39,862 bases of DNA from positions 1 through 39,862 of the IMG/VR virus record IMGVR_UViG_3300046660_000802; one strand, 5' to 3'. Below the pieces are notes generated by a model. The model made no database searches. It was given only the letters and a program-made list of their open reading frames with translations, and was not told the origin of the DNA. The first letter of the stretch is position 1. The number at the start of each line of letters is the position of its first letter. The position numbers were made by a program, and so were the translations under genes. The DNA comes from a virus. Positions 29,543 through 31,794 of this stretch are shown in pieces.

Positions 29543-29965
29543 TCAAGCGACCTTCACTGACTGCTCCATCACGTTCAGCTCGTTCCGGACATGCTCGATT
29601 TCTTTGCGGATACCCTGCTTCTCGATCTGGCTGACGTGCCCGTCGTCGAGAGCCGAGTGCACCGCTATGGTCAGGTCAGCGATTTCTTTGCCAACGTTCA
29701 TCATCGAAGCAGTGAGCGTCTTCGGGGCCGGGGCTTCCTTTTTCACCAGGTCGAAACCGAACTGATCAGCCAAGGCAGCGAGCGGTCGCATATCGCCGGT
29801 ATGCAGCAGAATCCCGAACAGATGCTCGATGGTGAGGTGGTGGGCGTCGTTATCCGGGTTCGCACGCTGCAGCAGGCTCACGTGCGGAACACCCATCTGG
29901 CCGGCAAGCACCTTCGCCTCGTTGTCCAGGACTGCGCTTTGGCAAGCCCGCAGGAATTCGTCCAT
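29543..29965 (-). CDS. CII-like phage regulatory protein (CP76 family type)
   Basis: A 140-residue protein that follows cro in the early-right operon. It starts MDEFLRACQSAVLDNEAKVLAGQMGVPHVSLLQRANPDNDAHHLT, a helix-turn-helix pattern found in the Phage_CP76/CII-like family, with a long C-terminal helical part (KEIADLTIAVHSALDDGHVSQIEKQGIRKEIEHVRNELN). By family and place it should activate lysogeny promoters such as one for cI or an integrase. A GAGG Shine-Dalgarno is eight bases from the ATG. No CII target repeats could be confirmed by eye. Confidence 0.8.
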   Translation of the reverse strand: MDEFLRACQSAVLDNEAKVLAGQMGVPHVSLLQRANPDNDAHHLTIEHLFGILLHTGDMRPLAALADQFGFDLVKKEAPAPKTLTASMMNVGKEIADLTIAVHSALDDGHVSQIEKQGIRKEIEHVRNELNVMEQSVKVA

Positions 29966-30047: not shown

Positions 30048-30227
30048 TTAAGCGGCGGTAATCTTTCGATCGGCTTTGAACTTCCCTTTCGAAAGAACCT
30101 GAATTTGGTACTGACGAGACTCAGGGATCGTTTCCCCCCACATCGTCACGGCGCTTGGATGAATACCTAACGCCATTGCCAACTTTTTCTTGCTGCCGAA
30201 GTGTTCGGCGACCTCACGCGTATTCAT
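30048..30227 (-). CDS. cro: Cro-like repressor
   Basis: This 59-residue protein starts MNTREVAEHFGSKKKLAMAL. It has a helix-turn-helix (KKLAMALGIHPSAVTMWGE) and a short C-terminal strand region (SRQYQIQVLSKGKF), the usual Cro/YdaS-like form. It diverges from the CI gene, with a GAGG Shine-Dalgarno seven bases before the ATG. It should bind the same operators as CI and favour lytic growth. Cro and CI share the site cluster at 30257-30326. Confidence 0.92.
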   Translation of the reverse strand: MNTREVAEHFGSKKKLAMALGIHPSAVTMWGETIPESRQYQIQVLSKGKFKADRKITAA

Positions 30228-30252: not shown

Positions 30253-30326
30253 TAATTTCAGCATGCTGAAGTTATGGAGTCAACGAGGATTTCAGCACTC
30301 TGCATACTTAAATTCAGCTAACTTAA
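30253..30326. promoter_or_regulatory. Right operator cluster (OR-like) between cro and cI
   Basis: The perfect palindrome TTCAGCATGCTGAA is at 30257-30270 (dyad extends to 30253-30274 with one mismatch). Related sites are TTCAGCACTCTGCA at 30291-30304 and TTCAGCTAACTTAA at 30313-30326. The same consensus returns at 31443-31501. These are the likely CI/Cro operators, and they overlap both divergent promoters. Confidence 0.85.
30255..30283 (-). promoter_or_regulatory. PR-like promoter for cro and the right operon
   Basis: On the minus strand TTGACT (30283-30278), 17 bases, then TGAAAT (30260-30255). The perfect operator at 30257-30270 overlaps its -10 and spacer, so repressor binding would block it. 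Confidence 0.8.
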
Positions 30327-30336
30327 TATTGGCGTC
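30324..30336 (+). promoter_or_regulatory. PRM-like -10 for a leaderless cI mRNA
   Basis: TAATAT (30324-30329) lies seven bases before the cI ATG (30337), so transcription should start at or next to the A of ATG. No Shine-Dalgarno precedes the ATG. The matching -35 (TGCATA, 30301-30306) is weak, as at lambda PRM. The -10 overlaps the third operator site. Confidence 0.6.
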
Positions 30337-30990
30337 ATGGACAGACACGAACGTATTGCCCGGGCCATCGCGCTCAGCGGGAAAAAGAAAGGCGAAATCG
30401 CATCCCTCTGCGGGGTCGCGAACTCTGCCGTGACACAGTGGATTTCGGGCGAAAGCAAAAGTTTGCGTCCAGAAAATCTGTATGCGTTGGCCAAAGCAAC
30501 CGGATTCCGAGCGGAATGGCTCGCCATCGGGGAAGGCGAAGAGAGAGAGCTGTCCGATCTAAACGTTGCGGACACGCGCCAACCCGTAGAGTCTTTTCGG
30601 TACCCAGTAATAAGCTGGGTGGCTGCCGGAGCCTGGGCGGAAGCAGTAGAGCCATTTCCACCTGGTTTCTCCGACCGGTACGAGCTCTCGGACTACAACT
30701 CAAAGGGTCCGGCATTCTGGCTCGAGGTCAAAGGAGACTCGATGACATCGCCTGTAGGGACGAGCATTACCGAAGGTACGTTGATTCTGGTCGACACCGA
30801 GGCCGATGCTCAATCCGGAAAACTGGTGGTGGCAAAGCTTGCTGATAGTGACCACGCCACATTTAAAAAGCTGGTAGAAGATGGTGGCCGGAGGTTCTTG
30901 AAGCCTTTAAATCCGGCCTATCCCACTGAAATGTGCGCTGAAAACTGCCGAATAGTCGGAGTTGTAGTTAGGGCTCTACAGAAGCTCTAG
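30337..30990 (+). CDS. cI: CI-type repressor with S24/LexA-like autocleavage domain
   Basis: This 217-residue repressor has an N-terminal helix-turn-helix (GKKKGEIASLCGVANSAVTQWISGESKSL). A LexA-like C-terminal domain follows with the cleavage pair Ala97-Gly98 in WVAAGAW, Ser135 in KGDSMTSP and Lys177 in ATFKKL. The Ser-Lys spacing (42) fits this family, so RecA-stimulated self-cleavage and SOS induction are expected. It keeps the prophage silent by binding the two operator clusters on either side of it. The mRNA appears leaderless. A strong terminator follows (31034-31057). Confidence 0.95.
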   Translation: MDRHERIARAIALSGKKKGEIASLCGVANSAVTQWISGESKSLRPENLYALAKATGFRAEWLAIGEGEERELSDLNVADTRQPVESFRYPVISWVAAGAWAEAVEPFPPGFSDRYELSDYNSKGPAFWLEVKGDSMTSPVGTSITEGTLILVDTEADAQSGKLVVAKLADSDHATFKKLVEDGGRRFLKPLNPAYPTEMCAENCRIVGVVVRALQKL

Positions 30991-31033
30991 CTGCCCAGGT
31001 AGATTCCAACCTATCCCCTTCCCATTCAATTCC

Positions 31034-31057
31034 AGCCCGCCAATGAGCGGGCTTTTT
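31034..31057 (+). terminator. Terminator after cI
   Basis: AGCCCGC/GCGGGCT stem (31034-31040, 31047-31053), six-base loop, followed by a T run. Confidence 0.88.
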
Positions 31058-31090
31058 GTTGTCCGCACGACAAGGAGTACAAATGTACTC

Positions 31091-31133
31091 TTGTCAAAAT
31101 AATTCCGAAACAATACTGTATGTACGTACAGTT
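31091..31133 (+). promoter_or_regulatory. LexA (SOS) box and promoter of the DUF1654 gene
   Basis: A perfect 16-bp palindrome CTGTATGTACGTACAG (31116-31131) matches the LexA consensus CTGT-N8-ACAG. A -35-like TTGTCA (31091-31096) stands 17 bases before TACTGT (31114-31119), which would be the -10 and overlaps the box, so LexA should block it until DNA damage. The start codon follows at 31151. Confidence 0.85.
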
Positions 31134-31150
31134 ACGGTAAGGAAAACCTC

Positions 31151-31402
31151 ATGCTGCGTTTCTCGATGTCTACACCCAAAACATCAACGTCCTACGAACA
31201 GGCGGGTCGGCGACTTCAGGCGCTAATTGCCGCGCCAGGTGTTCAGAAGGTACAGGCGGTGACGGTGTCGAGGCTTGAGCATGAGAGCGCAGAAGACTGG
31301 CAGCGACTTATTGACGAGATCAGCGAAACGGCTGGCGTAATGGTTGAAGCTTTAGGAGATGGCTCCGTAAAGATTGGATGGCGAGAATATTGCGAAGCAT
31401 GA
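31151..31402 (+). CDS. DUF1654 family protein, LexA-controlled
   Basis: An 83-residue protein with the DUF1654 pattern: TSYEQAGRRLQALIAAPGVQKVQAVTV, then HESAEDWQRLIDEISETAGV and a DGSVKIGW end. The family is found chiefly in Pseudomonas, and its biochemistry is unknown to me. AAGGA lies eight bases before the ATG; internal Met6 (MSTPKTSTSYE) is an alternative start. The gene lies between cI and the left operator, the place of rexAB in lambda. It has its own SOS promoter and its own terminator, so it is a separate unit that would be on during lysogeny only after DNA damage. Confidence 0.88.
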   Translation: MLRFSMSTPKTSTSYEQAGRRLQALIAAPGVQKVQAVTVSRLEHESAEDWQRLIDEISETAGVMVEALGDGSVKIGWREYCEA

Positions 31403-31405
31403 ACC

Positions 31406-31430
31406 AAGCCCGCCGTAAGCGGGCTTTTTG
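31406..31430 (+). terminator. Terminator after the DUF1654 gene
   Basis: AGCCCGC/GCGGGCT stem (31407-31413, 31419-31425) with a five-base loop and TTTTT. The stem is the same as in the cI terminator. Confidence 0.88.
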
Positions 31431-31442
31431 TTGCGTGTCGAT

Positions 31443-31501
31443 TTCAGATTGCTGAATTATTTTATTCAGCATACTTGACTCTTTAATTTCAGCTTGCTTA
31501 A
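31443..31501. promoter_or_regulatory. Left operator cluster (OL-like), three sites
   Basis: TTCAGATTGCTGAA (31443-31456), TTCAGCATACTTGA (31465-31478) and TTCAGCTTGCTTAA (31488-31501) share the consensus of the sites beside cI and are evenly spaced 22-23 bases apart. The last two overlap the PL-like promoter. Confidence 0.85.
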
Positions 31502-31503
31502 AT
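31475..31503 (+). promoter_or_regulatory. PL-like promoter of the left operon
   Basis: TTGACT (31475-31480), a 17-base spacer and TTAAAT (31498-31503). This is nearly the same promoter as the PR-like one (TTGACT-N17-TGAAAT). Transcription should begin near 31510. Confidence 0.78.
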
Positions 31504-31509
31504 CACCTC

Positions 31510-31794
31510 AAGCCAGACGACAACGGCCAGCAGCGAAAGCCGCGAAGCTCTTTAACAGTCAGCGCAACAAACAACAGACCGCATTGCCTCTACCGGCGAC
31601 CGGCGAGCAGACAGGCCCGAAAGCCTGCCTACGACAGGAACAACCTGGACGGCTGCTCGAGGGTGAAACGCCTTAACCGTGTGAGTGACCCGGCATGCAA
31701 TGCGCCCCGCTCCTCCAGCGGCAATAGGACGGAAAGCATCACTGAGCAGCCTTTCACCGAGGGCTGCTTGGGATGACAACCGAGGTAACAAACC
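31510..31794 (+). promoter_or_regulatory. Left-operon leader with boxA element
   Basis: A 285-base leader without a convincing gene. GCTCTTTAACA at 31547-31557 matches the rRNA-type boxA consensus (TGCTCTTTAACA) in all but the first base. A short hairpin CAGGC/GCCTG (about 31613-31630) could be boxB-like but is not typical. The leader ends with the first copy of a hairpin plus GGGATGACAACCGA element. I infer processive antitermination on this transcript. Confidence 0.6.
31745..31783 (+). repeat. Structured leader element, copy 1
   Basis: A seven-base-pair stem AGCAGCC/GGCTGCT with loop TTTCACCGAG, then GGGATGACAACCGA (31770-31783), 11 bases before the ATG at 31795. The same layout recurs at 31966-32003. 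Confidence 0.7.

Follow-up and report, generated by a model that had tools for sequence, protein, structure and literature searches.

The locus studied here raises two linked questions: whether the palindromes on either side of a cI gene form a lambda-like OR/OL pair bound by CI, and what a gene of the DUF1654 family is doing between them. It lies in a virus record of 39,862 bases, analysed over its whole length and called the window below, whose closest relatives are Pseudomonas phages and prophages. Leftward run cro, a gene for a CII-like regulator, a replication-type gene with an HTH_36 match and a DnaB-like helicase gene. The first two genes of the PR operon lie on the minus strand: cro (30048-30227, 59 aa) matches Pfam P22_Cro (E 1.2e-20), its product resembling P22 Cro itself (1rzs, E 1.5e-9), and the CII-like protein (29543-29965, 140 aa) matches Pfam Phage_CP76 (E 6.3e-27) and the CII-like PHROG 101 (E 1e-26). 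Rightward come cI, DUF1654 and then the PL genes. The plus-strand cI gene (30337-30990) encodes a repressor of 217 aa with an HTH head and an S24 self-cleavage domain (Pfam HTH_3 and Peptidase_S24) that matches lambda CI (3bdn, E 1.8e-28). An HTH-plus-S24 CI with a divergent cro is the mark of a lambdoid phage, and the region serves a temperate lambdoid Pseudomonas phage as its immunity region; an Rfam search of the window gave no matches. Taken as one joint claim, the sequence makes it highly likely that this region holds an OR/OL pair together with a LexA-controlled DUF1654 unit.

An earlier note on this DNA had described six sites of consensus TTCAGC-N2-GCTGAA in two clusters. All six are where it placed them and five are firm, but the sixth, at 30291, is doubtful because its score is that of the background. 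We scored every 14-mer of the window with a symmetric weight matrix built from the OR1, OR3 and OL sites of relatives, defined as 80 loci with a related CI, the window itself being excluded. Five sites took ranks 1 to 5 among all 14-mers of the 39.9-kb genome, with 18.9-22.9 bits against 12.8 for the next best: OR1 (TTCAGCATGCTGAA, 30257-30270, 22.9 bits, rank 1, no mismatch to the consensus), OL1 (TTCAGCTTGCTTAA, 31488-31501, 21.7 bits, rank 2, one mismatch), OL3 (TTCAGATTGCTGAA, 31443-31456, 20.6 bits, rank 3, one mismatch), OR3 (TTCAGCTAACTTAA, 30313-30326, 20.2 bits, rank 4, two mismatches) and OL2 (TTCAGCATACTTGA, 31465-31478, 18.9 bits, rank 5, three mismatches). Nearly all relatives have OR1 at -80 from cI, and OR3, just upstream of the cI start, is conserved at -24/-23. 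That the six are chance or repeat-derived palindromes is exceedingly improbable: loose matching (up to three mismatches) does return 42 sites where 21 are expected, and the 30291 site is no better than such matches, but the five sites exceed all other 14-mers of the genome by 6 bits and hold their positions in relatives although the intervening DNA differs.

OL has three sites, and OR has two firm ones plus a middle site at background level (30291-30311) whose register is uncertain. One frame, 30291-30304 (TTCAGCACTCTGCA), departs from the consensus at two positions and scores 10.4 bits (rank 9), the level of chance matches in coding DNA; the other, 30298-30311 (CTCTGCATACTTAA), scores 9.1 bits. 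Across 72 distinct OR regions the median score is 4.8 for the 30291 frame and 10.3 for the 30298 frame, and the left half of the 30291 site is often lost in relatives, with CTGCATRCTTAA, made up of its right end and the bases that follow, being kept. This block falls on the likely -35 of the cI promoter and could have been kept for the sake of the promoter, for a CI site or for both. Measured from start to start, the OL sites are 22 and 23 bp apart, as had been claimed, and the OR sites 34 and 22. The OL triplet with 22/22-23 spacing recurs in 51 of 81 loci, the others often being incomplete or longer than the stored flank, and the distance from OR1 to OL3 in relatives ranges from 1,155 to 4,540 bp. 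Since OR and OL are not mirror images of each other (34/22 against 22/23), the lambda order of occupancy is not transferable to this locus.

The promoters likewise read as previously described, PR and PL both being TTGACT-N17-TNAAAT with an operator over the -10. PR (30255-30283, minus strand) has its -35 TTGACT at 30283-30278, conserved as TTGAC or TTGAT in relatives, and its -10 TGAAAT at 30260-30255, covered by OR1. PL (31475-31503, plus strand) has TTGACT at 31475-31480, overlapped by OL2, and TTAAAT at 31498-31503, covered by OL1, in an N17 geometry shared by immunity types II-IV. The likely PRM -10, at about 30323-30329, is just upstream of the cI start and abutted by OR3, and the likely PRM -35 is overlapped by the middle OR site. 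The PR and PL -10 hexamers match the consensus at four of six positions and are supported by the N17 spacing, which every immunity type conserves at PL. A generic promoter scan of the window gave no promoter, because it requires an A at the second -10 position.

Comparison among loci shows the operators, their pairing with the CI head and the LexA boxes described below. Loci of other immunity types, collected through DUF1654, have an identical layout, with the operator ATAAGC-N2-GCTTAT in type II, ATGGGAATACCCAT in type III and TATTACCTGCGGTCTTG in type IV, whose CI head is lambda-like. Between the window CI and those of types II-IV the DNA-binding head is 25-29% identical and the C-terminal domain 75-80%; for one type II CI and one type IV CI the figures are 20% and 98%. 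The OR-OL match within a locus, taken as the best 16-mer match, is 14.54 out of 16. Permuting the pairs 5000 times gave 13.15 (sd 0.12) and never more than 13.57; the comparison is uncorrected for phylogeny, and the relatives are not independent. The locus sets are uneven (52, 21, 1 and 5 for types I-IV), so that types I and II carry most of the weight of the test; for type I alone the signal is weaker, with 5 of 2000 permutations reaching the observed value. A former measure of OR-OL similarity, restricted to 14-bp palindromes, was abandoned because it failed to capture types III and IV. Within a locus, the clusters at the two divergent early promoters share one specificity, and because the CI head and both clusters change together while the rest stays constant, CI very probably binds both. 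The proposal of a lambda-like OR/OL pair is thereby strongly supported, its layout being conserved and the operators of both clusters changing with the CI head in four immunity types. We regard it as very improbable that the palindromes are bound not by CI but by another regulator, for example Cro only or a host factor: in the lambda scheme Cro shares the CI sites, and the binder is not readable from sequence alone, but the operators track the DNA-binding head of CI although the remainder of the protein is nearly constant. With CI as the predicted binder of both clusters, the loci form a natural head-swap series that should be useful for deriving recognition rules outside lambda.

Self-cleavage upon RecA stimulation is established for the S24 family. 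The A97-G98 dyad, S135 and the FKKL lysine of the window CI align with the cleavage site and catalytic residues of lambda CI, and from this alignment over dyad, serine and catalytic lysine RecA-stimulated self-cleavage is expected. Of 91 distinct related CI proteins, 90 have the A-G dyad; the exception is the repressor of the P. putida KT2440 prophage P1, which has GTAQLGNDG. Cro probably uses the same sites as CI.

Repressor loops have been shown for HK022 (about 700 bp), phiKO2 (about 630 bp) and lambda (2.3 kb) (PMC8053113), and the 1.2 kb between OR and OL in the window is within the range of these known loops (about 0.63-2.3 kb). A loop shorter than that of lambda is not unusual, and we consider an OR-OL loop of about 1.2 kb likely; the helical phasing of this distance was set aside as uninformative over such a length. 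Binding and repression at both OR and OL without a loop, each cluster acting independently, seems unlikely to us. Looping is unreadable from sequence, relatives differ in their OR-OL distance (1.16 to 4.54 kb) and the regular spacing of OL is absent from OR, all of which would suit independent clusters, but the C-terminal domain of CI is lambda-like and all three lambdoid repressors tested do loop, over 0.63-2.3 kb (PMC8053113).

The DUF1654 gene, which the earlier note had treated as a bystander, appears instead to be a separate SOS-controlled unit with a LexA box of its own and is probably part of the switch. The gene (31151-31402, plus strand, 83 aa) matches Pfam DUF1654 (PF07867; E 1.4e-21, 76.4 bits against a curated cut-off of 27), and its product is a homologue of PP_3901 and a predicted SOS-controlled prophage inducer. 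It is bounded by two plus-strand terminator-like hairpins with T tails, one after cI (31034-31053) at a position shared by relatives and one between DUF1654 and OL/PL (31406-31426), also conserved. Its promoter reads TTGTCA-N17-TACTGT (31091-31119, plus strand; conserved as TTGCCA-N17-TACTGT), and the LexA (LexA1) box CTGTATGTACGTACAG (31116-31131) lies over the -10. A LexA box stands 5' of DUF1654 at 120 of 122 loci, such boxes totalling 185 in 1.33 Mb, and the same is true of F116 and YMC11/07/P54 and of 10 out of 10 high-scoring genome copies that were checked; a conserved LexA box over a promoter, the signature of a LexA-regulated gene, is what the DUF1654 unit carries. Just upstream of the promoter, the LexA2-type box GAGTACAAATGTACTC (31075-31090) is the sole match in the window at up to three mismatches. 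At that tolerance GAGTACAAATGTRCTC, which we take to resemble the LexA2 site GTAC-N4-GTGC, is present in the window and at 18 other DUF1654 loci, that of PP_3901 among them (19 of 122). The DUF1654 slot between cI and OL is fixed in phages of four immunity types. One locus, L002, is the only one of 60 CI-linked DUF1654 loci to have no LexA box. In its place, at cI+776 and 5' of DUF1654, is a perfect CI operator (TTCAGCTGGCTGAA), as if control of the gene had passed from LexA to CI.

P. putida PP_3901 is reported to be under the control of both LexA proteins and to be needed for the SOS induction of prophage genes, a result of the original PP_3901 paper (Abella 2007) taken here as given in PMC4595014; LexA binding and SOS induction are reported for this homologue only. 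We located the gene through both qPCR primer sequences of PMC4595014; a search of 400 Pseudomonas genomes did not find the primer, and both primers match one IMG/VR record, L164. The gene between them encodes a DUF1654 protein (E 1.7e-32) that is 31% identical to the DUF1654 protein of the window, and the boxes upstream of it, LexA2 GAGTACAAATGTGCTC and LexA1 CTGTCTATGCATACAG, match those of the window in position. It is followed by a terminator, OL/PL with ATGAGCATACTCAT and a boxA leader, and on the far side of cI, at a distance of about 4.4 kb, there is a matching OR. PP_3901 is a DUF1654 gene in the same slot adjoining OL. From the primers and from a gene content (CI, a RexAB-like pair, HicAB) that fits the published description (PMC12894663), we take L164 to be the KT2440 prophage; a Pfam search of the record did not recognise the RexAB pair.

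The KT2440 prophage P1 (PP_3896 to PP_3901, with RexABpp) is like the window in having CI, a LexA1/LexA2-controlled DUF1654 gene, OL/PL and a boxA leader; its cargo includes RexAB, and its cI is positively autoregulated (PMC12894663). It is unlike the window in its CI, whose C-terminal domain is only 25% identical and has no A-G dyad, in its OR-OL distance of 4.4 kb and in its operators, ATGGGAATTCTCAT and ATGAGCATACTCAT. The same P1 CI in the records L166 and L172 has the different C-terminal domain, with GTAQLGNDG in place of the dyad. Because the dyad is absent, the P1 CI may not cleave itself, which would explain the need for PP_3901; given this difference and an identity of 31%, the requirement need not extend to phages with a self-cleaving CI.

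In the mechanism that we propose, CI dimers on OR1 and OL1 would cover the -10s of PR and PL and so keep both early operons off, and OR3 and the middle OR site would govern the promoter of cI itself. Cooperative binding is suggested by the spacing of 22-23 bp between sites and by the lambda-like C-terminal domain of CI, probably with an OR-OL loop. DNA damage would then act by two routes, RecA-stimulated self-cleavage of CI at A97-G98 and loss of LexA (and of LexA2 where present) from the insulated promoter, by which DUF1654 would be driven. By analogy with PP_3901 and its reported requirement (PMC4595014), DUF1654 would most likely help to lift repression. Occupancy by CI and Cro, looping and the action of DUF1654 in the window phage are thus predictions from its sequence and from a published homologue with 31% identity.

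On that analogy we lean towards DUF1654 being an SOS-controlled helper of induction. A less probable but serious alternative is that it does not induce its own prophage and is instead a general SOS accessory common to host and phage, for example a modulator of RecA or of cell division. Genes of the DUF1654 family are present in 35 of the 40 Pseudomonas genomes that were sampled, where some copies will be prophage copies, and a family present in most genomes of the genus may have a general SOS role. The LexA box carried by each of the 10 high-scoring copies examined and the probable ability of the window CI to cleave itself are in keeping with this, as is a fold search with the DUF1654 model (pLDDT 81, pTM 0.66), whose best PDB matches were SepF-like with an E value of 0.14, which is not significant; viral matches included none below 0.03. 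A SepF-like fold was considered, and the assignment was withheld because the matches are insignificant. Set against a general accessory are the reported requirement for PP_3901 in prophage gene induction (PMC4595014) and the fixed place of the gene between cI and OL in four immunity types. If DUF1654 is a helper of induction, a bolder and rather doubtful extension is that it is a widespread LexA-controlled prophage inducer acting on the shared C-terminal domain of CI (or on RecA) and not on the DNA-binding head, a target that would make it effective across immunity types. Were this true, the DUF1654 copies of hosts and of other prophages could induce prophages in trans. DUF1654, a large uncharacterised family, is now tied through PP_3901 to a published SOS phenotype and to a fixed position in the switch.

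The arrangement belongs to the lambdoid kind and follows ordinary lambdoid logic, with the probable addition of an SOS-controlled inducer inside the immunity region. Lambda, 434, P22, HK022 and phiKO2 share with the window divergent PR and PL, multi-site operators flanking cI, an HTH-plus-S24 CI and a Cro, and the operators of 434 are 14 bp long, as they are here. The window is unlike these lambda-type regions in its separation of about 1.2 kb, in its 34/22 OR spacing and in having, inside the region and between two terminators, a LexA-controlled gene with its own promoter. Comparable layouts have been described in the Pseudomonas phages D3, whose record has three putative operators of 14 bp annotated in the cI-cro interval, and YA3, which has PL, PR, PRM and an ORF between cI and PL (PMC7326022). 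In psageK9, whose CI is 54.5% identical, cI is flanked on either side by TTTAG-N4-CTAAA-like sites, and a boxA follows PL. All three differ from the window in operator sequence, and neither D3 nor psageK9 is among the 24 phage records in which DUF1654 was matched. The LexA-controlled antirepressors Tum of phage 186 and those of Gifsy (PMC3121763) are products of small LexA-governed phage genes that aid induction, as is expected of DUF1654, and no sequence relation between them and DUF1654 was found; unlike in those systems, the CI of the window is probably also self-cleaving, and antirepressor activity of DUF1654 is putative. What sets the locus apart from other lambdoid regions is the clean head-swap series and the insulated LexA-controlled DUF1654 unit beside OL.

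Between cI and DUF1654, relatives carry varied genes, including those for cytosine methylases, HipA-like kinases, an AAA ATPase and a YafO toxin family match, in a slot that corresponds to the rexAB position of lambda. In one Pseudomonas phage with operators of the window's type (L038, 3048-4359), RexA (E 5.3e-54) and a weak RexB match lie between cI and DUF1654. In relatives with an OR-OL distance above 2 kb (for example L028, L077 and L064) the slot holds methylases, an AAA ATPase, an HTH plus Peptidase_M78 gene and many unknown genes. Such long cargo slots are a place to seek new defence or exclusion genes.

The PL leader (31530-31557, plus strand) consists of a short hairpin position, weak in the window, followed by boxA, GCTCTTTAACA, at 31547-31557. 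The form GCTCTTTA, identical to the boxA element of rRNA antitermination leaders, occurs at a near-constant place after PL in loci of all types, 79 out of 105, and most of the others have variants of it. A boxB-like hairpin before boxA is suggested in many loci, but folding gave it too little support for it to be claimed: consensus folding of the leader gave no pairs, and single-sequence folding gave a weak trend only (mean z -0.95). In the PL leader region (window 31504-31790), the stretch after boxA falls into several distinct sequence classes in relatives, with boxA and its position constant, which suggests that the PL leaders are exchangeable antitermination leaders. Further downstream, GGGATGACAACCGA occurs twice, at 31770 and 31990 of the window, each copy lying 3' of a hairpin (CAGCCTTTCACCGAGGGCTG and CTGCCCATTCACTGAGTGGGCAG, respectively) and 5' of a small ORF (31795 and 32022).
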